Made by a program: the position numbers and the translations under genes. Positions 42,899-58,018 of a DNA stretch of 64,000 bases are shown here, in pieces. Below the pieces are notes generated by a model. The model was not told the DNA's origin and ran no database searches. It saw nothing but the letters and a program-made list of their open reading frames with translations. The stretch is from Catellatospora sp. KI3 (GTDB taxonomy: Bacteria > Actinomycetota > Actinomycetes > Mycobacteriales > Micromonosporaceae), in assembly GCF_029948125.1 (NCBI RefSeq), contig NZ_JASAMB010000005.1:1-64000 (forward strand). The letters are read 5' to 3'. Each line of letters starts with the position of its first letter. The stretch's first letter is position 1.

Positions 42899-42909
42899 GC
42901 CCGCGAGAC

Positions 42910-46040: not shown

Positions 46041-47236
46041 ATGTTCACGGCTCCCCCCGCGCCGGTGCAGCCGCGTGGACCGGCGCGACTGGCCCGGCTG
46101 CGCGTCCTGCTGATCGAGGACGACGAGGGCGACGCGTTCCTGGTGGGCGAACTGCTCGACGAGCAGCAGGCCGCCATCCAGCTGACCGTGGCCAGCAGCC
46201 TCAACGAGGCCCGGCAGCTGTTCGACGCGACCGACTGCATCCTGCTCGACCTGGGGCTGCCCGACGCGCAGGGCATGGAGGGGCTGCGCCGGGTGCTCGC
46301 CGAGGCGCCCGGGGTCGCCGTCTGCGTGCTCACCGGGCAGCAGGACGCGCACGTGGGCATCAGCGCCGTCGCCGAGGGCGCGCAGGACTACCTGGTCAAG
46401 GGCCAGGTCGACGGCGCACTGCTGGAGCGCTCCGTGCAGTACGCGGTCGAGCGCAAGCACGCCGAGGTCAGCGCCGGCAGGCTGCGCGAGGTCGAGCTGC
46501 GCCAGGCCGAGTCGGCCCGGCTGGAGCGCGGCCTGCTGCCGCAGCCGCTGATGAGCAGCGACCGGCTCGCCGTGCACACCTTCTACCGCCCCGGCCGCCA
46601 CGAGGCGCTGCTGGGCGGCGACTTCTTCGACGTGGTGCAGACCTCGCCGCGGCACGTGCACGCGGTGATCGGCGACGTCAGCGGCCATGACGTGGACGGC
46701 GCCGCGCTCGGCGTCGAGCTGCGGGTGGCCTGGCGGGCGCTCACCCTGGCCGGGGTGGCCCCCGAGCCGACGCTCGCCGCGATGGAGCAGGTGCTGGTCA
46801 GCGAGCGCAGCCATCCGGGCACGTTCGCGACGATGGCGGTGCTCCGCATCGACCTCGACACCGGCCGGGCCGCGTGCTGGCTGGCCGGGCACCCGCCGCC
46901 GCTGCTGCTGGCCGACGGCTCGGTCGCGCCGGTCGACGTGCCGTACGGGATGCTGCTCGGCCTGGGCGACGCGCCCCGCACCGGCACCGAGTTCGACCTG
47001 CCCGCCGGCCCGTGGTCGCTGCTGCTGTTCACCGACGGACTGGTCGAGGGGCGCACCGGCGACGGTCCGGAGCGGCTGGGCTACGACCGGCTCGACGAGC
47101 TGTGCCGGGCCCGGCTCGCGGCGGGCGTGCCGATGTCGGCGCTGCCCTCGGCCCTGGTCGAGGCGGCGGAGGCGCTCAACGGCGGCCCGCTGGCCGACGA
47201 CGTGGCGATCGTGCTGCTGAACAAGGAAACGGCATC

Positions 47237-47240
<4 letters not shown>
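46041..47240 (+). CDS. Response regulator receiver - PP2C (SpoIIE) phosphatase
   Basis: A 399-residue fusion. Residues ~20-140 are a receiver domain (VLLIEDDEGDAF; phospho-Asp in ILLDLGLPD; Lys in YLVKGQ). Residues ~175-395 are a PP2C/SpoIIE-type Ser/Thr phosphatase (GGDFFDVV, GDVSGHD, LLFTDGLVEG, DDVAIV). A phosphorelay probably switches phosphatase activity toward an anti-sigma antagonist, as in RsbU-like modules (family knowledge). ATG 46041 is taken; an upstream ATG at 45963 is possible. The GTGA overlap with the kinase gene shows coupling. Confidence 0.88.
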
Positions 47241-48852
<1,612 letters not shown>

Positions 48853-48856
<4 letters not shown>

Positions 48857-49305
48857 TCTCGATGCCCGAAGCCGAACGCCCCATCGTGGTGCTGCTCGTC
48901 GAGGACGATCCGGGCGACGTCCTGATGACCCGGGAGGCGTTCGAGGAGTACAAGATGCGCAACGTGCTCCAGGTCGTCACCGACGGCGTCGAGGCCCTGG
49001 CCTACCTGCGCCGGGAGGGGGAGTACACCGACGCGCCCGTGCCGGACCTGATCCTGCTCGACCTGAACCTGCCCCGCCGCGACGGCCGGGAGGTGCTCGC
49101 CGAGATCAAGAACGACCCGGAGCTGTGCCGCATCCCGGTCGTGGTGCTGACCACCTCGCAGGCCGAGGAGGACGTGCTGCGCAGCTACCAGCTGCACGCC
49201 AATGCGTACGTGGCCAAGCCGGTGGACTTCGAGCGATTCATCTCGGTGGTCAAGCAGATCGACGACTTCTTCGTCAGCGTCGTCCGCCTGCCCAACCGCG
49301 CGTGA
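48853..49305 (+). CDS. Single-domain response regulator (Rcp1-like)
   Basis: A 150-residue stand-alone receiver domain: acidic pocket VEDDPGD, phospho-Asp in [12 protein letters not shown], Lys in [11 protein letters not shown]. No output domain, like Rcp1/CheY-type regulators that pair with DLQEPLRKV-type kinases. ATGA overlap with the kinase gene. It may relay phosphate to the receiver-phosphatase or act as a sink. Confidence 0.92.
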
Positions 49306-49325
49306 CCGCCAGCGCAGATTCGAGT

Positions 49326-49356
49326 GGCGGGGGGATGCGGTCACTGCGTCCCCGCC
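49326..49356 (+). terminator. Terminator hairpin at the left edge of the island
   Basis: Stem GGCGGGG / CCCCGCC extended by GGATGC/GCGTCC (one G-T), 20 bases after the response regulator stop. Sequence becomes A/T-richer right after it. Confidence 0.65.
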
Positions 49357-49471
49357 CTCGCATGCAGAGGGGCAATTATCATTAACGCTCACCTGCCTGC
49401 GCTGGTCTTCCGTAGGGTCAGGTAACTCTTTAAGCTGTCTCCAGGGCTGGCCGCATCGATAGGAGCTGATC

Positions 49472-50089
49472 ATGGCGGCACACCTGGACGCAATGGCCGC
49501 CGCGCGAACGCGCCAGATCTTCGAACAGGAGGGAGGCGTTCGGTACGGCCATTTCCGGGTGCGTGCCGGGCACCATACGAACGAGTTCTGGGAGAAGTTT
49601 CCCGTCCTGCAGTCACCAGAATCAGCAGACGAGCTTTTCGGGTATCTGGCCGACCTACTCTCGAGTGCGCGGCCAACGATAGTCGCGGGTCCTACGCAGG
49701 GCGGCCTTGTTGTGGCCTGGGGAGTCGCACGGCGCCTTCGATGCCGCGCGCTATTTCTAGAGAGAGACAACTACGAGGCATTGACTGTGCGACGTGGGGT
49801 AAAAGTGTCGTCGGATGAACGAGTCGTGCTCGTCGATGATCTGATTTCTAGTGGAGAAACACTGGCTGAAGCCAAGAGCCTGATGGAAGGTAGGTTCGGC
49901 GTCCGGGTCGCCATGGCTGGAGTTCTCATCGACAGGCGCGGTGGGCTTCTGGTCAATCCCTCAACACTAGTCCCCGAGGTCGCCGCACTGTTGCGACTGG
50001 AGTCCCGGAGTTGGTTGCCGGCTGACTGCCCTTCATGCGCAAGAAATGAATCGCTTCTAGACCCGCGAACGCTACAACCCGTGGCTTGA
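49472..50089 (+). CDS. PyrE-like phosphoribosyltransferase in the low-G+C island
   Basis: A 205-residue type I PRTase. The PRPP loop is VVLVDDLISSGETL (D122-D123); the N-terminal pattern YGHFRVRAGHHTNEFWEKF and VAGPTQGGLVVAWGVARRL resembles orotate phosphoribosyltransferase. Such enzymes attach PRPP-ribose phosphate to a base. AGGAG precedes the ATG. Foreign codons are used (GCG CTA TTT CTA GAG AGA). A short Cys motif (CPSC) near the C-terminus is unusual for PyrE. It ends tail-to-tail with the radical SAM gene (18-base overlap), so it is probably an accessory enzyme of this island and not the housekeeping pyrE. Confidence 0.85.
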   Translation: MAAHLDAMAAARTRQIFEQEGGVRYGHFRVRAGHHTNEFWEKFPVLQSPESADELFGYLADLLSSARPTIVAGPTQGGLVVAWGVARRLRCRALFLERDNYEALTVRRGVKVSSDERVVLVDDLISSGETLAEAKSLMEGRFGVRVAMAGVLIDRRGGLLVNPSTLVPEVAALLRLESRSWLPADCPSCARNESLLDPRTLQPVA

Positions 50090-51262
50090 CTCCTCGCGCG
50101 AATTGGCGGCATTAGGCTCTGAGGTTGCCGGCTGGCCTTCGGGCACTGCCTCCGGGGTACTGAAAATCGATCCCCGGAACACTCGGAAGAAATTGACCGT
50201 GCTAGCTATCGGTACATTGAAGCGATGCAGTAAATAGCAGTAGTCCTCTTGACTGAGTGATCCGTCGATGTGAATGTGCTCGCCTTCCACGGTGGCGCTG
50301 TTTGTCAGGCCGATTCGGGCGAGGGAGGTTTCCACCTCGCTGGCGGTCGGAACTTTCCGCGAATCCGCACATCTCGCTCGCTGCAGTGAAGGGCAGCGGC
50401 TTGGTTTGCAGATCGACGGTCGATGAATCGTTGCCGTATAGTCGGCCTCGCCTAGTACATGGGACACAGCGCATGACGTATGCTCATACAAGGGATGTTC
50501 CGGACATATCTCCGCTGCGATTCTGCGTAGGTTTTGAACTGCCTCGGGAGGAGTCCAGGAGCCCTCATCGGACGGTCGGCCTGCGGCTGGCTTTAGAATC
50601 TCACTCTCGGTGTAGAAGCGCTGCAAGCCGTCGTTCAGCTTGATTCCGACGTGTACGGTCGCGCGTGACCACGTGGCGGCGGACGACAAAACTTCGCGCA
50701 GTGTCAACTCATCCGTGTTGGCAGGCAGCATGGGCCGGAAATAATGGATCACGGGCACTTGACGCTTGGTAAGTCGCCGCATCGTTGCCAGGGCCGACCC
50801 CTGTCGTATGCCCTTTTCGACATGACTTGGCAGCGCGGACCAGCTACATAGAAACACGACCCGGACATTCCGGAGGTTCGCAATTGTGTCTGCGGTCTCC
50901 TCGGAGATCTCCTTTTTGGAGATGAGGGCGACCGGGTTTCGTAGTCCGCGTTTCTCAAGCTCCGTCAGAAAGGCCGTCATGTGTGGGATGACTTCGGGCA
51001 TCAATACATCGGTTCGTGTGCCGTAGCACAACTTTGTCTCATTTGGAATGAAATATCGGTGACTGACGAGTTGCTCAACGATGTCAGTGGTTGATTCGAC
51101 GACCTCTGGGCGGACCCCAGTCCAACCTGCGAGTCTCAGAAGGCAGTACGAGCATGATGCCTTGCAGCCGATGACGGGATCGACCGCAAGCCAACTGTCG
51201 TGATATTGAATAGGTGAGTACGGGTAGTGGTCTCCGATTGTGGAGAGGAGCCCCTCAGACAT
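50072..51262 (-). CDS. Radical SAM protein with extra C-terminal Cys cluster
   Basis: A 396-residue radical SAM enzyme: the [4Fe-4S] motif is C33-x3-C37-x2-C40 (CKASCSYC), in a context (WLAVDPVIGC) like the spore-photoproduct-lyase/“DNA repair photolyase” branch. A second group of cysteines (CKPSRCPSLQRARC, ~310-325) could hold an auxiliary cluster. ATG 51262 begins 8 bases inside the end of the upstream kinase gene, so translation is coupled. Substrate unknown; neighbours suggest a nucleoside, nucleotide or small phosphorylated metabolite. Confidence 0.85.
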   Translation of the reverse strand: MSEGLLSTIGDHYPYSPIQYHDSWLAVDPVIGCKASCSYCLLRLAGWTGVRPEVVESTTDIVEQLVSHRYFIPNETKLCYGTRTDVLMPEVIPHMTAFLTELEKRGLRNPVALISKKEISEETADTIANLRNVRVVFLCSWSALPSHVEKGIRQGSALATMRRLTKRQVPVIHYFRPMLPANTDELTLREVLSSAATWSRATVHVGIKLNDGLQRFYTESEILKPAAGRPSDEGSWTPPEAVQNLRRIAAEICPEHPLYEHTSCAVSHVLGEADYTATIHRPSICKPSRCPSLQRARCADSRKVPTASEVETSLARIGLTNSATVEGEHIHIDGSLSQEDYCYLLHRFNVPIASTVNFFRVFRGSIFSTPEAVPEGQPATSEPNAANSREESSHGL

Positions 51263-53186
51263 CGGAGATCCCGGCGATAAGTGTCGCATGGCGCATCCCG
51301 ACCTCTTTGAGGGAAGCCTCGGCCGCATGGTAATCCTCAACGCTGAGAGAACGGTCCCAATACCAGTTGAGTTGCTCCAGCATCGATGCTAGATATGCCT
51401 TCGCTCCAGCTTCGTTGAACTCGAATTCTGGGAAAGCTTGCAGTCGAACATCTCGATGTGATGCCAAGCCGGCGTGATATGGCTCGTAGAACATCGAGGA
51501 GCCGGCAAGCAGCACCGAGCACCCGATCGAAAAGGGGGTAACCCTCACTTCTAGCGCGCGGTCCTCGCCTTCTGCCAGATGGAAAAGGCTCCGATAATCG
51601 TCAAGGCAACGCGAGAATCGGGTGAAGGTTCGTGTTCGCTCGAGGTCGGCGAAACGCTGGGCCCTTGGAGCTTGCTGAAGCGCGCGCAGTATGCCTTCCT
51701 CGGCGAACGGGCTCATCATCAGAATTTGTGTTCTCGCCCCGCCGCCGGCGCGCTGGCGGCGGATACGGTCGGAAAAGCTGGGGAACAGCGTGCCCTCGGG
51801 CGCCATATATGACCAACCCGAATGGGCGAGTAGCCAGAGATCTTGGTCGGATTCGAGCAGTTTGACCTTCGCTCTGTTTCGAGCGTTCCAGTCGTCGGAG
51901 TGATGTACCGCTACAATTCCTGTGTCGAAAGTCTGTCGCAATACCGGGCCGGGTGTGAGCGGCATTCTGCGAAGCTCACCCGAGTCGGGCGTCCGTGTGT
52001 CGGACAGATGTGCCGGATCCACCACACTGACAGTAGAGGCCACCCGGCGGGGGCCCTCAAGAACCATCCACAACAGATGGCGCCGAGCCTGCTCCGATGT
52101 TACAGACCGATCTGCCCACCGCAGCATTTTGGCGGCAGTGGATATGCGACAAGCATGAAAGAATCGTACTTCATCACCAGCGCGATTTGCGTCCATTCCC
52201 TGTTGGAGTGCTCGTTCGAATGCTTTTCTCAGCTGATATACGACTCGCAATATCGGCACAGGGCTTTCCAGCCACGCGTCATCGAGGTACGCGTCGAAAA
52301 GCATCCTGTGAACTATAGGGATTGTCTCATCGGTCAGTCCTCCAGCGCGGACCAAAAGGTCTATTTCAAGACGCGCCATATCCATGATCGGAGTGTTGAT
52401 CCCCACTCCGCCGAAGTCAATCAAAAAAGGGTGATAGGTCGACCCGTCTAATAGTACATTCGCGCCGCGGAGATCACCATGGCACACAGACGCCTTAACG
52501 TCACGGTTCAATCCGCTGATGTAGTGCTCCCAGTCGTTCATGGCGTCCAACACCTCGTGCCAACCACTGCCGACCCCGGCAGAGCTGGCACCGGCTATCG
52601 CGACGACTGATGAGAGAATTGCACGCAATTCTCTCGAGGGGATCGCCAGCACTCTTTTAGCCGGAATATTTTCGGTGTCGGTGGAGTAGGCTGAGGACAA
52701 TATTCTGGCAAGAGCGCTAAACGTAGAAGCCCAGCTCTGCTGGCGGTCGCGGCCGAGCGGCGACGAGACAAAACGAGCGACCGCCTCTTCCAGCGATATC
52801 AAGTCTTCTGCGGCGCCCGTGTTGCCGGCGAGCTGATACAGAATAGCGGACCACTGGTCGCCGTTCCGTTCAATCACCGGGTCCACCGTGGTTTGTGGAG
52901 GCGCGCCTTGCCACAGGGCGGTTCTGCCACTCCATCGGATGTGTGCGTTCCGCTCCTTTGCGATCGCCGTCGCCTCCCCGCATTTGAGGACGTATGAGAT
53001 CGGTGAGTGAGGCGCCTTGACAATTGCACGCAGTACGGCGCTGCCGCTCTCGCCACCGAAAAGTGGCAGCAGGCGGACGATCCGCGCGTTGAATCCCTGC
53101 TGTCCGCCGAAGAGCTCATCTATCAGATCCTGGATAGGGATCGTCGCGTCTGCGAAGTTTCCATCCCACTCGATCGTTACAGGCAT
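51255..53186 (-). CDS. APH-like phosphotransferase fused to PLD-like domain
   Basis: A 643-residue protein. Residues ~40-380 form an aminoglycoside-phosphotransferase/choline-kinase-like domain: ATP lysine near K68 (SYVLKCGEA), catalytic loop H236-G-D238 (VCHGDLRGANVLLD) and metal Asp in D257-F-G (LIDFGGVG). Residues ~400-640 look like a phospholipase-D-like fold (KVKLLESDQDLWLLAHSGW, TQILMMSPF, LEVRVTPFSIG) but no HxK catalytic motif is visible, so the domain may bind rather than cut. The fusion is unusual. It may resemble APH-like proteins from predicted conflict systems; that is a recollection to be tested. Foreign codon use; operon position three. Confidence 0.75.
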   Translation of the reverse strand: MPVTIEWDGNFADATIPIQDLIDELFGGQQGFNARIVRLLPLFGGESGSAVLRAIVKAPHSPISYVLKCGEATAIAKERNAHIRWSGRTALWQGAPPQTTVDPVIERNGDQWSAILYQLAGNTGAAEDLISLEEAVARFVSSPLGRDRQQSWASTFSALARILSSAYSTDTENIPAKRVLAIPSRELRAILSSVVAIAGASSAGVGSGWHEVLDAMNDWEHYISGLNRDVKASVCHGDLRGANVLLDGSTYHPFLIDFGGVGINTPIMDMARLEIDLLVRAGGLTDETIPIVHRMLFDAYLDDAWLESPVPILRVVYQLRKAFERALQQGMDANRAGDEVRFFHACRISTAAKMLRWADRSVTSEQARRHLLWMVLEGPRRVASTVSVVDPAHLSDTRTPDSGELRRMPLTPGPVLRQTFDTGIVAVHHSDDWNARNRAKVKLLESDQDLWLLAHSGWSYMAPEGTLFPSFSDRIRRQRAGGGARTQILMMSPFAEEGILRALQQAPRAQRFADLERTRTFTRFSRCLDDYRSLFHLAEGEDRALEVRVTPFSIGCSVLLAGSSMFYEPYHAGLASHRDVRLQAFPEFEFNEAGAKAYLASMLEQLNWYWDRSLSVEDYHAAEASLKEVGMRHATLIAGISDV

Positions 53187-53204
53187 CAGGAGGGCATCTT
53201 TTCT

Positions 53205-53993
53205 CTAGGCTTTGAATATGACGTCGAGTACGGGCAGGCATTCGCCACCGCGGCTGCGGCGCGCCGTCCGAGAAATCGAGAGCGTCTCCGTGAGGCGCCA
53301 TTCTTGGAAGAGCTCCGCCATGGTGGGATGACACGCTGTGAATGGAATAGATATCCGCCCATCATGAGCTGCGGAGCAGAAATCTTCTACGGAGTACCGA
53401 TGGGTACGGAATAACCCGGCGTCGTCGTCGACCACGTCAAATGCGGGAAAAGATCCGCGTGCTATATCCGCAGTGGAGGTCTTGAGTGCCCAGGCTGCCA
53501 ACTGGCGACCTATCCGGTAGCGGCGGCGCATGGCCTGCCAGTGCTGCAACGACATATCGGTACCGACTCGAACGTCTCTTCTAGTGGGCAATCTTTCAAA
53601 GTCCACGAGCCAGACGAGGCCGCCGGGACGCACGACCCGGCGCACCTCATGGATGGCTGATCGACGCGCCCTCCGAAGTGGGATCAGATTCGACACGAAT
53701 GATAGTACTGCTGCGTCTGCCGATGCCTCGGCCAAGGGTAGGCGGTTCGTGACATCACCGATTTCGACATTCCAAGATAGGTGTTTCGCGTGACTCACGC
53801 GATCTGGTGCGATATCAATCCCTATCCACGCGCCGCCAGCCGCGACAAGCGGTTCTCTGAGTCGACCGTTGCCGAAGCCGATGTCCAGCACGATCGGTTG
53901 CGTGCCGCAGTACGTCCGCAACACTTTTACGAATGCAGAAGCGTCAGGCGTAGGTCCGATACCGGTTGGCAAATTAACGGGAGCCGACATCAT
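53205..53993 (-). CDS. Class I SAM-dependent methyltransferase
   Basis: A 262-residue methyltransferase with motif I at ~35-43 (IVLDIGFGNGRL), acidic loop GIDIAPDR, motif at LPLAEASADAAVLSFVSNL and VRRVVRPGGLVWLVDF. Type 11-like fold; acceptor unknown. Its ATG overlaps the PfkB-like stop as ATGA and it ends 18 bases before the kinase-PLD gene, so it is in the same operon. G+C and codon use are lower than the genome. Confidence 0.85.
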   Translation of the reverse strand: MMSAPVNLPTGIGPTPDASAFVKVLRTYCGTQPIVLDIGFGNGRLREPLVAAGGAWIGIDIAPDRVSHAKHLSWNVEIGDVTNRLPLAEASADAAVLSFVSNLIPLRRARRSAIHEVRRVVRPGGLVWLVDFERLPTRRDVRVGTDMSLQHWQAMRRRYRIGRQLAAWALKTSTADIARGSFPAFDVVDDDAGLFRTHRYSVEDFCSAAHDGRISIPFTACHPTMAELFQEWRLTETLSISRTARRSRGGECLPVLDVIFKA

Positions 53994-54901
53994 TGAAGCC
54001 CAGTCAGGTAACGTAGAGAGCGTCGGTCGAGACTTCCGGGACGCTCCGCCGGAGTTAGCGCCTCGTATCCGGTATTCACCCAGCGCAGGTCATCGTGGCG
54101 AGAAACGAATAGTTCGACCTCATTGCTCGGGCGGAGCACTACCATCGCTTTATTTCGAAGCGCCCTTGTCGCCAGCTCTCGCAGTTCGTTGGGGGACGTC
54201 GGCACAGGTCCTACTCCGTACAAGCGCTGGATTGTAGCGGCCTCGCCGAAGATGACGTCGAACTCGCCAAGAACCCGCTCAAAATTGTCGACGTGATCTT
54301 CTAGTCGATGTGGAACGAGATCGAGTGCGATCGTCGCGCCGTTTCGCTTGGCTGCACTTACCAGCGTCATCACCTGCTCAGCCCTTGCTGAGTCGATCAA
54401 GGAATAGCCTGAGATGAAGAGGGCGTCAGAAGTCTGTGCGAAGTCCAGCACTGTCCGCGACGGACCTTCGCGGTCGACGAGTTGATTGGCACCTGGCTGG
54501 GCCAGTAATAAGCGTTCTTCCCCTTTAAAGTCGATGCACACAGCGGTACCCGTCGGTGCACGTTCCTCGCGACGTAACAGATCGTGGATCCGCTCTCGGG
54601 CAAGGATGGTAACAGCGGCGTCGCCCGCTGGATCAAGACGCTGTGACGGATCGCAGCCGACAGAGCCCCATAGTCCGACCTCAGGAATATTGATCTTCCG
54701 TGCCTCTAAGGCGACGACTAGCCCCGTTCCGCCCAAGCGCGTTCCGAGATCAGTGGCTACGTGCCCGGCTGCGCATGCCTCAGTGGCGGGCAGACCAATG
54801 TGGCCGACGACGTCAAGCATCACATCGCCTACGACTAGCAACCGGTTGATAGGTTTCTGGATGCCTGGGCCTGACCGCACAGTCGTGACCGGACCTCTCA
54901 C
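53990..54901 (-). CDS. PfkB-like protein lacking catalytic motifs
   Basis: About 303 residues with a ribokinase/PfkB fold start (LLVVGDVMLDVVGHIG), the GG motif region (LGGTGLVVALEA) and FISGYSLID. But the usual Asn of the GG-x3-N substrate motif is Val, the N-x-x-E metal motif reads FGEA, and the C-terminal GAGD catalytic motif is absent: the protein ends SLRYLTGLQ before or without it. So it is a degenerate or highly divergent PfkB, perhaps a nucleoside/sugar sensor. Start uncertain (GTG at 54901; others at 54883 and TTG 54934). First gene of the minus-strand operon. Confidence 0.78.
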   Translation of the reverse strand: MRGPVTTVRSGPGIQKPINRLLVVGDVMLDVVGHIGLPATEACAAGHVATDLGTRLGGTGLVVALEARKINIPEVGLWGSVGCDPSQRLDPAGDAAVTILARERIHDLLRREERAPTGTAVCIDFKGEERLLLAQPGANQLVDREGPSRTVLDFAQTSDALFISGYSLIDSARAEQVMTLVSAAKRNGATIALDLVPHRLEDHVDNFERVLGEFDVIFGEAATIQRLYGVGPVPTSPNELRELATRALRNKAMVVLRPSNEVELFVSRHDDLRWVNTGYEALTPAERPGSLDRRSLRYLTGLQ

Positions 54902-54922
54902 CTCGTCGGGATGTGAACCATT

Positions 54923-55384
54923 GTGACTGATCAAATCAGCCTGGTGCTAGCCAGCGCGGCGCTCGTCTTGTCATTGATCGTTTCGATCGATGCATATCGT
55001 GTTCGGGTGCAATCGGCCAGGTCAGCCGATGTCACTGTCTACTTTCATCGTGTGCGGAGCTTCGCTCGCGTTGTGATGGTCGACGGGGATGTGCGGTCAG
55101 CTGGCTATCATCTGGTGATCTGGAACAGAGGCCCATCAGTCGCACTCAATGTATCTGTAGAGATCCGGGATGCCATTGGCGAGGTGGTCGATCTTCGCAG
55201 CTTAGAGGAGAATGAGCTGCCGCTGAACAGGCTGGATTCCTCTGGCCGCTACCCGATCCCGTGGATTCCGGAGGGAGACATTTATCGTGGGCACAGGCGC
55301 TTCGTAGTTAAAGTCACCTGGTCGGACGGTAATGGAAGACACAGCCACACACTGCCACTGCGGCGAGGCGAGACCACCGTCTAG
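54923..55384 (+). CDS. Single-span membrane protein with beta-sandwich-like domain
   Basis: A 153-residue protein: one N-terminal membrane span (ISLVLASAALVLSLIVSIDA) followed by ~120 residues of predicted beta strands (HLVIWNRGPSVALNVSVEI, RFVVKVTWSDGNGRHSH). No family recognised. GTG start with GGGATGTGA upstream. It is divergent from the PfkB-like gene with only ~20 bases between starts and shares its low G+C, so it belongs to the island; could be its membrane-facing part. Confidence 0.68.
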   Translation: MTDQISLVLASAALVLSLIVSIDAYRVRVQSARSADVTVYFHRVRSFARVVMVDGDVRSAGYHLVIWNRGPSVALNVSVEIRDAIGEVVDLRSLEENELPLNRLDSSGRYPIPWIPEGDIYRGHRRFVVKVTWSDGNGRHSHTLPLRRGETTV

Positions 55385-55452
55385 CGGAATCTGATGCGGG
55401 AGCGCGGATGTGCCGTCCACCTTTTGCCGAATCGACGGCACGCCCCGGTTCG

Positions 55453-56832
55453 TCATGATGATGGATCCGGTAGTTTTCCCGGGTTCAGTAAACCGCGCGG
55501 GTCGGCCAAGACTGCTGATGCGCGAAGGGTGGCAAGAGCGGGGCCGCCGAGCAGCCAGGTGTGCGGGTCGACGACGTGCACGCCCAGTGCCCGCAGCCGT
55601 TCCACCCCGGCGTAGAGCGTGTCCGCGTCGCGGAACTCCGACAGCAGCAGGCCGCCGAAGCCGCGCCCGCGGGCCGGCTCGTCCGGGTCGAGGAACGTGC
55701 GCAGCCCGTCCAGGTGCAGCATCGCGCCCGGCAGGCAGGCGCGCACCGCGTCCGGCTCGGCGGTCAGCGGCTCGCCGCCGACCTGCAGGTGGCACAGGTC
55801 GGGCCGGGTCTTGCGGGCCCGCAGCGTGACGTGGTTGAACGACAGCGTCGACAGGTAGCCGACCGCCTCCGGCGTCACCGCCTCGACGTGCCCGCCGTGG
55901 CCGGTGACCGCCCGCATCGCCGCGTCGACGGTGCGCGCGTCGACGACCGCCCGCAGGCTGTGCCGCCCCGCGGGCATCGCCGGATCGGGCGGGTACGTCG
56001 CCACCAGCGCGGGCTCGTCCAGCGACACCAGCCGGGGCGCCGGGTCCAGGTGCAGCAGTTCCCGGGCGGCCGCGACCGCCGGTGCCCAGTCGGGGAACGA
56101 GGCGAGCAGCGCCGTCCAGTCCCGGGCGGGCGACAGCCCCACGGTGGCGGTGGCGATGACCCCGGTCACGCCGTACGCGTGCAGGTACGGCAGGCAGGCC
56201 GCGCCGGTGACCCGCCAGGGTTCGCGCGGCGGGCAGCCGAGCACGTCGAGGGCGTGCACGAACCCGTCCCACAGCCAGCCGTGCTCGATCGAGCCCAGCC
56301 CGCCCGCGCCGCCGGCCAGGAACCCGCCGATGGTGCTGCCCACGGTGCTGGGCAGCATCGCGATCTCCTGGCCGGTCGCCCGCGCGGCCGCCTCCAGCGC
56401 CACGAAGGTCGCCCCGGCCTGGGCGTGGACCCACCCGTCGCCGACCTCGACGACCCGGTCGGCCCGGGTCAGGTCGACGACCAGCCCGCCCGCCAGCGGC
56501 ACCGCCTGGCCGTAGTTGCCGGTGCCCCGGCCGCGCGGCACGACGGGCACGCCGTGGGTGTGCGCCAGGCGCAGCAGCGCGGCCAGCTCGTCGGTCGTGC
56601 CCGGCCGGGCCACCACGTCGGCCGGATGCTCCGGCAGCACCGCGGTGAGCACCGGGGAGAGGTGCGCGTAGTCGCGCGAGGCGGCGGTGCGGGCCGGCAG
56701 CGAGGTGGTGTACCGGTCGGGGGGCAGCACGGCGGGCAGGTCGGCCAGGAACGCGGACAGAGCCGCCGGGCCGGGTGCCCGGCGGCTCGTCTGCTGCACG
56801 ACCTGCGCCAACGGCGGTGTCGGCACGGTCAT
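55453..56832 (-). CDS. FAD-linked oxidase (GlcD/VAO-type)
   Basis: A 459-residue flavoprotein. The FAD_binding_4 domain is clear (DVVARPGTTDELAALLRLAH, PRGRGTGNYGQAVPLAGG, GSTIGGFLAGGAGG) and the C-terminal motif LLNPGKL closes the protein. Enzymes of this type oxidise alpha-hydroxy acids or related alcohols. It is the last gene of the six-gene amidohydrolase-transporter operon, 10 bases after the second binding protein. Odd: the last ~28 codons (below ~55,540) use TTA, CTA, GGA, AAA, TCA and similar codons, unlike the rest, matching the adjacent island. Confidence 0.87.
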   Translation of the reverse strand: MTVPTPPLAQVVQQTSRRAPGPAALSAFLADLPAVLPPDRYTTSLPARTAASRDYAHLSPVLTAVLPEHPADVVARPGTTDELAALLRLAHTHGVPVVPRGRGTGNYGQAVPLAGGLVVDLTRADRVVEVGDGWVHAQAGATFVALEAAARATGQEIAMLPSTVGSTIGGFLAGGAGGLGSIEHGWLWDGFVHALDVLGCPPREPWRVTGAACLPYLHAYGVTGVIATATVGLSPARDWTALLASFPDWAPAVAAARELLHLDPAPRLVSLDEPALVATYPPDPAMPAGRHSLRAVVDARTVDAAMRAVTGHGGHVEAVTPEAVGYLSTLSFNHVTLRARKTRPDLCHLQVGGEPLTAEPDAVRACLPGAMLHLDGLRTFLDPDEPARGRGFGGLLLSEFRDADTLYAGVERLRALGVHVVDPHTWLLGGPALATLRASAVLADPRGLLNPGKLPDPSS

Positions 56833-56842
56833 CGGAGGTTCC

Positions 56843-58018
56843 TCAGCTCAGCCCGATCGACGGGTCGATGAACTCGTTGGTGACCAGGTCCTGGGCGGTG
56901 AGCCCGGCCTTGATCTCCTTGCGCTGGCCGGTGTAGATCGGGCTCACGATCTCGATGACCCGCTTGACCCGGTCGACGTCGAAGTCGCCCAGCGTGGTGT
57001 TGCCGCCGTTGCTGACGATCTTCAGCTTGACCTGCTGCTCCACGCTGAACGCGGCCGCCTCCTTGGAGTACGGGAAGCCCTTGTACGCGTCGTTGAGCTT
57101 GATGATCAGGTCGTTGGTCGCGGCCGGGTCCTTGATGTAGTCGACCTGCGACTTCTGGATGATCGGGACCAGCTTCTTCAGGCAGGCGGCGTGCTCGCCC
57201 TTCTTGTCGGCGCGCACCACGATCGCCTCAGGGTAGATCGGGTAGCCGGTGTCGTGGATGAGCTGGAACTTGACCGGCTTCTTCCACTGCGGCAGGGCCT
57301 TCTCGTAGATGAACGGCTCGTTGGTGGCGAAGCCCTGCTGGGCGATCTTGCCCTTCTCGGCCAGGAACCGGGCGGGGCTGCCGTCGTACGCGCCGTCGAT
57401 CTGGTTGCGGCGCAGAATGCCCGAGCCGAGCAGGTAGTCCATGTACGTGGCGCCGTTGAAGTACAGCACCGGGGTGTCGGTCTTGCCGATGTCGACGATC
57501 GAGTTGAAAGTCGGGTTCGCCGCCGGGTCCCACATGATCATGTAGGGCGCGATGTCGAACGGGGCGACCACGCCGACCACGGGCTGCTTGTCCGACAGGC
57601 CGATCGCGTCGTCGGTGGCGACCTGGCCGAGCATGATGGTCGGGTCGGCGTACATCTGGGCGCCCGCGTTCTGGAAGCCGATCGCCGGACCGCCCGCGCG
57701 GATCTCGACGTTGACGCCGGTGCTCTGCCCGCCCGACAGCAGCGGCCCGGACACCTTCTTCTTGTCCGGGTCGATGGTGTTCGTGCTGCCCAGCAGGTGG
57801 TACAGGGCGCCGTGCTCGGCCTCGGGCGTCCACGCCGCCTGGATCACGACCGTGGCCGGGCAGACCGCGGCCAGGTCGAGGGCGCCGCTGCCCGCGCTGG
57901 GCGCGGCGGCGGGTTCGTCGGGTTCGGCCGTGCAGCCGCCCGCGAGCAGCAGCGCCGCGAGGGCGGCGACCGCGGTCGCGCGCCGTAACGGCAGCGCAGG
58001 GGCGTGATACAGCTTCAT
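56843..58018 (-). CDS. ABC transporter substrate-binding lipoprotein (NMT1/SsuA-like)
   Basis: A 391-residue binding protein with lipobox LLLAGGC near residue 28. The mature domain follows the NMT1/SsuA/ThiY style (VVIQAAWTPEAEHGALYHLL, VVAPFDIAPYMIMWDP, PYSKEAAAFSVEQQVKLKIV). AAGGAG is close to the ATG. Serves the permease and ATPase encoded just upstream; likely ligand is a pyrimidine or other small N-heterocycle because a cytosine-deaminase-like enzyme is in the operon. Confidence 0.87.
   Translation of the reverse strand: MKLYHAPALPLRRATAVAALAALLLAGGCTAEPDEPAAAPSAGSGALDLAAVCPATVVIQAAWTPEAEHGALYHLLGSTNTIDPDKKKVSGPLLSGGQSTGVNVEIRAGGPAIGFQNAGAQMYADPTIMLGQVATDDAIGLSDKQPVVGVVAPFDIAPYMIMWDPAANPTFNSIVDIGKTDTPVLYFNGATYMDYLLGSGILRRNQIDGAYDGSPARFLAEKGKIAQQGFATNEPFIYEKALPQWKKPVKFQLIHDTGYPIYPEAIVVRADKKGEHAACLKKLVPIIQKSQVDYIKDPAATNDLIIKLNDAYKGFPYSKEAAAFSVEQQVKLKIVSNGGNTTLGDFDVDRVKRVIEIVSPIYTGQRKEIKAGLTAQDLVTNEFIDPSIGLS

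Follow-up and report, generated by a model that had tools for sequence, protein, structure and literature searches.

An acquired island in Catellatospora sp. KI3 carrying a kinase fusion gene and a radical-SAM gene with linked relatives in other bacteria

Modified nucleotides are produced by prokaryotic viperins, radical S-adenosylmethionine (SAM) enzymes belonging to antiviral systems, and CD-NTases are a further source of the nucleotide messengers of bacterial immunity. In the parts of the paper on vWA-MoxR-VMAP ternary systems drawn on here (PMC7159879), such messengers are traced to cyclases, PNP (nucleoside phosphorylase) and TIR enzymes, PNP domains are regarded as possible messenger generators, APH-like kinases are listed as rare effectors with small molecules as possible substrates, and a radical-SAM domain is thought to modify a peptide effector. 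Outside immunity, the excerpted account of the HD and radical-SAM pair OxsA/OxsB describes its product as the nucleotide-derived oxetanocin A (PMC7074753). The stretch of Catellatospora sp. KI3 DNA analysed here (NZ_JASAMB010000005.1, positions 1 to 64,000; all 64,000 nt are called the window) includes a 6.16 kb island in which a gene for a kinase fused to a C-terminal (CT) domain lies beside a gene for a radical-SAM protein similar to spore photoproduct lyase (SPL), designated rSAM. This middle part of the island is conserved elsewhere, and the pair could not be matched to any described system; no description of a system combining rSAM, HD and APH/CT proteins was found in the open-access literature searched, which excluded bioRxiv and included few subscription papers. 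Our preferred reading, given a probability of about 0.4, treats the island as a divergent version of a nucleotide-centred conflict system that is probably directed against phages.

The features that carry the argument are as follows.

49309-55468, no strand: acquired island, with limits taken from empty sites in two genomes of the same genus and from composition
51255-53186, minus strand: kinase-CT fusion, core gene, 643 aa, an APH/TCAD9-like kinase (TCAD9 72.7 bits, APH 30.1 bits) joined to the CT domain
51258-51974, minus strand: CT domain, with RNxAK, GxS, FEPY and FE motifs, its start set by an alignment of eight sequences
50072-51262, minus strand: rSAM, SPL-like radical-SAM protein, core gene, 396 aa, recognised from its CxxxCxxC motif and from Foldseek

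The core genes and their relatives

Relatives of the fusion were found to adjoin an SPL-like rSAM gene in five actinobacterial families, and the next gene encodes an HD phosphohydrolase. When 300 genomes of the family, KI3 included, were searched with the fusion protein and at most four of the best candidates per genome were scored, 28 had a match at E<=0.01, mostly to short pieces, and seven other genomes matched in both halves or over most of the length. At six of these seven loci, rSAM and then HD relatives directly follow the fusion (one rSAM was recovered by tblastn). Other searches with the fusion found only the KI3 copy, by profile in 396 genomes of the phylum (E<=1e-10) and by protein in 298 of the order (E<=0.001), weak negatives as the best three or four candidates per genome were scored; the fusion protein alone, in a first scan of the genome_contigs collection, found no relative. 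A scan of the genome_contigs collection with rSAM only gave 46 pattern matches and 14 confirmed loci, five of them in genomes already among the seven, and an HD gene adjoins rSAM at 13 of the 14. Eight of these loci carry a kinase-CT fusion (Planotetraspora, three Phytohabitans, two Glycomyces, Actinomadura and Streptomyces longisporoflavus), and no CT domain was found at four (Mycobacterium simulans, Amycolatopsis, S. olivaceus and Acrocarpospora). At the other two, CT is fused to a nucleoside-phosphorylase domain (PNP_UDP_1; an Oscillibacter metagenome-assembled genome, MAG) or to DUF4062 (a Phycisphaerales MAG), and these fusions likewise adjoin radical-SAM and HD genes. The linkage thus spans Actinomycetota, Bacillota and Planctomycetota, and the core genes are co-directional, neighbouring ones either overlapping by 4 to 112 bases or lying 4 to 35 bases apart (for two rSAM genes and one HD gene the start was chosen from an alignment). 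In the HD proteins, H51, H81-D82 and D142, which we take to be the metal ligands, are invariant in all 11 aligned rows.

Relatives of the fusion with both halves occur in Phytohabitans, Glycomyces, Planotetraspora, Actinomadura and Streptomyces. The catalytic motif of APH-like kinases is HGD..N followed by D; in the kinase half K68, HGD at 236-238, N243 and D257 are invariant in the aligned relatives, and the TCAD9 score exceeds its cut-off of 40, so the kinase is TCAD9/APH-like on both domain match and catalytic residues. Aminoglycoside resistance was set aside, the kinase being TCAD9-like and fused. The remainder of the protein, the C-terminal ~240 residues, had originally been called a phospholipase D (PLD) half. 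That name has no support in the sequence, as none of the eight aligned CT domains, those of the PNP and DUF4062 fusions among them, matched Pfam at E<=5, and the AlphaFold2 model of the fusion (predicted local distance difference test, pLDDT, 46) is too poor to judge the CT fold. A CT profile found a single match in PDB (E 0.12), and the Foldseek matches of the fusion model, APH(9)-Ia and APH(3')-Ia at E>=1.5e-3, say little because the model is poor. As CT is constant while the catalytic N-termini vary, it looks like a sensor or adaptor for interchangeable catalytic domains.

The rSAM protein belongs to the radical SAM superfamily on its CxxxCxxC motif and fold, with a Pfam Radical_SAM score (14.8 bits) below the cut-off of 29.5. 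Seven cysteines, those of CxxxCxxC together with C264, C285, C290 and C298, are kept in all 36 aligned rows, and the last four possibly hold an auxiliary cluster. Its AlphaFold2 model (pLDDT 74, predicted template modelling score 0.77) had spore photoproduct lyase as the top Foldseek match (E 8.9e-7, 15% identity, TM-scores 0.45/0.52), with HydE (1.1e-6), pyruvate formate-lyase (PFL) activase and biotin synthase nearly as good. No PDB sequence matched rSAM at E<=1, and none matched its profile at E<=0.01.

In a tree of the 36 rows, 14 form a clade with HD neighbours (the HD clade), five Streptomyces plasmid rows and locus L091, which have murA-like/aldolase or uridylyltransferase neighbours, form the murA clade, and 15 form the exo clade, several of which, among the part of its rows whose surroundings were read, adjoin an exonuclease, an AAA ATPase or an aldo/keto reductase. 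No CT or HD relative was present at the exo- and murA-clade loci, and one weak 32-bit HD piece was found at L097, an rSAM locus outside the tree. Cys79 is common to the window rSAM and 13 of the 14 HD-clade rows and is present in none of the 21 other rows. The window is thus linked with the HD clade by its fusion gene and by Cys79, while overall similarity (<=34%) leans to the biosynthetic-looking clade. Relatives of rSAM were present in seven of 297 other genomes of the order at E<=0.001 and, by profile, in eight of 324 other genomes of the class at E<=1e-15; they fall mostly in the non-HD clades. The plasmid collection held 37 records with rSAM relatives, and the surroundings of nine were examined.

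The CT-less loci of Amycolatopsis, S. olivaceus and Acrocarpospora share a convergent gene of 415-458 aa, located beside their rSAM-HD pairs (L070, 12123-13370; L071, 12133-13509; L072, 12149-13492). The L071 and L072 proteins are 74-76% identical to that of L070, which, as the one member scanned, matched nothing in Pfam and nothing in PADLOC at E<=0.05. Small proteins with one hydrophobic stretch are encoded near several fusion-rSAM-HD loci (L075, 7417-7956; L076, 7522-8052; L080, 12233-12727; L078, 7449-7997); judged by eye and unaligned, the Phytohabitans and S. longisporoflavus proteins resemble one another. Among the plasmids, four from Streptomyces (L014, L016, L036 and L037) carry a recurring, biosynthesis-like block of class II aldolase, murA-like and rSAM genes, three of the four with a glycosyltransferase gene as well. 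A Rhizobium sp. plasmid (L039; NZ_CP072166.1, 7923-10227) carries rSAM, 3'-5' exonuclease and AAA ATPase genes between Shedu and ABC-three-component genes, and a similar trio is found on Mesorhizobium and Streptomyces plasmids.

Limits and gene content of the island

The original prediction described a foreign region of low G+C content at 49380-55450. The G+C content of 49309-55468 is 58.3%, compared with 72.0% in the remaining window, and is the lowest of any 6.16 kb stretch of the window at 100-base steps, confirming the predicted drop. Third-position G+C of the six island genes is 0.60-0.64, whereas 40 open reading frames (ORFs) picked outside the island by a simple script average 0.906 (sd 0.085, minimum 0.613). 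The codons CTA, AGA and AAA are enriched as predicted (13.1, 10.1 and 9.1 per 1000 codons in the island; 1.0, 0.6 and 1.0 outside), though in the neighbouring genes they are rare rather than absent.

Ten relatives were compared over 15 kb each. In two genomes of the same genus, G602 (L116) and G590 (L117), the window flanks adjoin, 63 and 137 bp apart, with the left match ending at 49308 and 49315 and the right match beginning at 55469 and 55463, respectively. As both flanks adjoin in these genomes, the island extends over ~49309-55468, slightly wider than first drawn. The other eight relatives gave alignments of at least 150 bases for the right flank only and are uninformative on the left border. 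Composition and the empty site in two relatives together support horizontal acquisition, as had been proposed. Its neighbours are a response regulator gene and a gene that by eye is oxidase-like, and the stop codons of both face the island. Integration at an attachment site was considered and set aside, as no integrase-like Pfam match was found in the six proteins, no tRNA gene in the window and no convincing terminal or direct repeat at the borders, where there is only a weak 18-nt repeat (83%). Rfam gave no match across 47000-57500. Elsewhere in G602, a 2.4 kb stretch of high G+C (L116, 3726-6107) with a sigma-factor-like ORF (by eye) lies between matches to window positions 42899 and 42918, and is not in the window at the corresponding place.

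Four further genes complete the island.

49472-50089, plus strand: PRT, phosphoribosyltransferase similar to orotate phosphoribosyltransferase (OPRT), 205 aa, accessory (Pfam Pribosyltran, 44.3 bits)
53205-53993, minus strand: MT, class I SAM-dependent methyltransferase, 262 aa, accessory (Methyltransf_11, 50.5 bits)
53990-54934, minus strand: PfkB-like protein, degenerate and truncated, 314 aa from a TTG start, accessory (Pfam PfkB, 32.4 bits, cut-off 25.8)
54923-55384, plus strand: MEM, small protein of 153 aa with a hydrophobic N-terminus (ORF; hydrophobic stretch by eye), probably with one transmembrane helix

The gene order and junctions are as first described: PfkB and MT share ATGA, MT and the kinase are 18 bases apart, the kinase and rSAM overlap by 8 bases (rSAM ATG at 51262), PRT and rSAM overlap tail to tail by 18 bases, and the membrane protein gene is divergent. 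PRT matched an orotate phosphoribosyltransferase in PDB (4paw, E 3.4e-16), and its score with TIGR01367 (101.3 bits) lies below the cut-off of 150.25, so it is not classed as a PyrE equivalog. It had matches at E<=1e-8 in six of 80 other related genomes (best 5.0e-10) and weak matches in five records of the plasmid collection. For MT, 45 other genomes of the family gave nothing at E<=1e-15. The canonical PfkB motifs GAGD and GGxxxN are also visible in aligned relatives; the island protein has GSLD for GAGD, has lost the asparagine of GGxxxN and stops early, so "degenerate PfkB" was an apt description. Weak matches to it were found in nine of 197 other genomes of the phylum (best 2.0e-7). MEM had no relative in the plasmid collection, the sole place in which it was searched by itself.

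The six genes had been proposed to form one system. This proposal is only partly supported, and a single six-gene unit was rejected, as PRT, MT, PfkB and MEM had no counterpart near the rSAM and fusion loci: tblastn found none of them at the 14 named rSAM loci or the seven fusion loci, they were likewise not found at the other rSAM loci examined, and the complete set was found in no other genome searched. Nothing in the plasmid collection matched the fusion, PfkB, MT or MEM of the window, the Planotetraspora HD protein, the Actinomadura fusion or the Oscillibacter CT domain. Scans of viral contigs with rSAM, HD, fusion and PRT gave no confirmed relative, and rSAM, the sole protein tried against phages, had no match there. 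None of the six island proteins has an HD match, so an HD and radical-SAM pair of the OxsA/OxsB type is not present in the island. The window copy is a divergent, HD-less variant with an OPRT-like phosphoribosyltransferase, a methyltransferase and a degenerate PfkB.

Proposed function and alternatives

Starting from the linkage, the interchange of fused domains, the retention of active-site residues and the finding that the genes here are acquired and sporadic, we infer a function of the following kind. The rSAM would modify a nucleotide or nucleoside, and the HD enzyme in relatives, or the phosphoribosyltransferase and methyltransferase here, would make or trim the substrate or product. The CT domain may sense the product, or infection, and then switch the fused catalytic domain; in the window, the target of the kinase would be a small molecule or nucleotide, whose phosphorylation would harm the invader or the infected cell. 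The most likely use would be in conflict, probably against phages.

A nucleotide-like molecule with a possible role in defence had been predicted, and the evidence that favours this is indirect: the HD gene beside the relatives, and matches of fused or neighbouring domains to defence models. The PNP part of the Oscillibacter fusion matched the PADLOC model for a CBASS (cyclic oligonucleotide-based antiphage signalling system) effector of the PN superfamily (5.9e-14), the DUF4062 part of the Phycisphaerales fusion matched PDC-S60, a candidate defence family (8.5e-24), and a NUDIX protein encoded at both Glycomyces loci, one of which was scanned, matched the CBASS 2TM effector (2e-21) and DRT NUDIX (2.3e-19) models.

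Several observations weigh against the conflict-system reading. Of the related proteins scanned, none of three rSAMs, two HD proteins and one kinase-CT fusion matched PADLOC at E<=0.05; in the window, rSAM, PfkB and MEM had nothing at E<=1 and PRT (best 0.0051) and the fusion (0.029) had no good match; MT matched mad2 (2.3e-8), probably as a generic methyltransferase. No defence genes were noticed in the rest of the window when its ORF list was read. The HD family of the relatives is missing from the whole KI3 genome (best 17.3 bits over 49 positions), and the window fusion is 23-27% identical to its relatives. One of the seven fusion loci, L063, carries the fusion but neither rSAM nor HD, L068 has rSAM alone, and L070 to L072 have rSAM and HD without CT. 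The linkage frequencies are biased upward, as rSAMs adjoining the fusion supplied the query for the scan, and several of the 14 loci are congeneric. The window rSAM is unplaced in the tree: it groups with the exo clade, though support is weak (76/35.9), and placement with the HD clade (approximately unbiased test, p 0.392) or the murA clade (0.289) is not rejected. Its closest BLAST relatives (32-34%) lie in biosynthetic-looking clusters of Streptomyces plasmids.

The chief rival explanation is a small natural-product cluster of nucleoside type, in which a modified nucleoside would be assembled by the phosphoribosyltransferase, rSAM, methyltransferase and kinases, and its phosphorylation by the APH-like kinase would serve self-protection or activation. 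Streptomyces plasmid rSAMs at 30-34% identity adjoin murA-like and class II aldolase genes, others adjoin dCTP deaminase, uridylyltransferase and methyltransferase genes, and L091 (33%) has neighbours that by eye are MazG-, uridylyltransferase- and NUDIX-like. OxsA/OxsB provides a precedent for such a product (PMC7074753, in the part available), and BlsE is among the Foldseek matches of rSAM, at rank 48. However, no transporter or regulator is found among the six proteins, PfkB is degenerate, and relatives of the pair recur with defence-type domains in other phyla; we consider this explanation less likely than a conflict system. A cassette for SPL-like repair or for RNA/DNA modification, with nucleic acid as its substrate instead of a free nucleotide, is improbable. 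Spore photoproduct lyase is the best structural neighbour of rSAM, and an exonuclease gene adjoins rSAM in exo-clade rows and in L036 of the murA clade, but the scores of HydE, PFL-activase and biotin synthase are close to that of SPL, four further cysteines are conserved (SPL itself was not in that comparison), and free nucleosides or nucleotides are suggested by the OPRT-like phosphoribosyltransferase of the island and by the PNP fusion of a relative.

It is also possible that only the kinase-CT and rSAM genes belong together and that PRT, MT, PfkB and the membrane protein gene are unrelated foreign passengers, as none of the four lies near the other rSAM or fusion loci examined and PfkB is degenerate and truncated. 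Yet the genes from PfkB to rSAM are co-directional and overlap or are closely spaced, all six are alike in composition, and the empty-site comparison gives the borders of a single block, so that we consider this unlikely. Within the conflict-system reading, a more specific version, that of immune signalling, is likewise doubtful: rSAM with HD, or with the phosphoribosyltransferase and methyltransferase here, would make a modified nucleotide messenger, CT would be its receptor, and the interchangeable effectors wired to CT would be the kinase, the nucleoside phosphorylase and DUF4062. If true, a conserved radical-SAM and HD pair with a sensor-like domain and swappable effectors would add radical chemistry to immune messenger synthesis, in a small three-gene core whose CT domain belongs to no Pfam family and may bind a ligand.

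Comparison with described systems

PADLOC includes viperin models, and no family in it matches the window rSAM at E<=1; unlike prokaryotic viperins, this rSAM is SPL-like and has different partners. SplB is its best Foldseek match and has the same CxxxCxxC radical-SAM fold, but identity and TM-scores between them are low, HydE and PFL-activase score almost equally, and the window rSAM differs in its four further conserved cysteines and its operon partners. The relatives of the island resemble OxsA/OxsB in pairing an HD phosphohydrolase with a radical-SAM protein, a pair that in OxsA/OxsB acts on a nucleotide. However, OxsB is cobalamin-dependent, whereas no cobalamin domain was recognised by Pfam in the SPL-like window rSAM, which is also coupled to a kinase-CT fusion (or, in relatives, an effector-CT fusion) and in the window lacks the HD partner.

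No CD-NTase (SMODS) match to Pfam or PADLOC was found in the six proteins, which separates the island from CBASS, and no vWA, MoxR or VMAP was found among them, TCAD9 being the only match to the ternary systems; the name TCAD is not used in the main text of the paper on those systems, as far as it was available (PMC7159879). CBASS and the vWA-MoxR-VMAP systems are similar to the gene system proposed here in their interchangeable effector domains, which include PNP-superfamily domains and APH-like kinases, and in their sporadic distribution, but differ from it in that the core of the island is a radical-SAM protein, joined by HD in its relatives.

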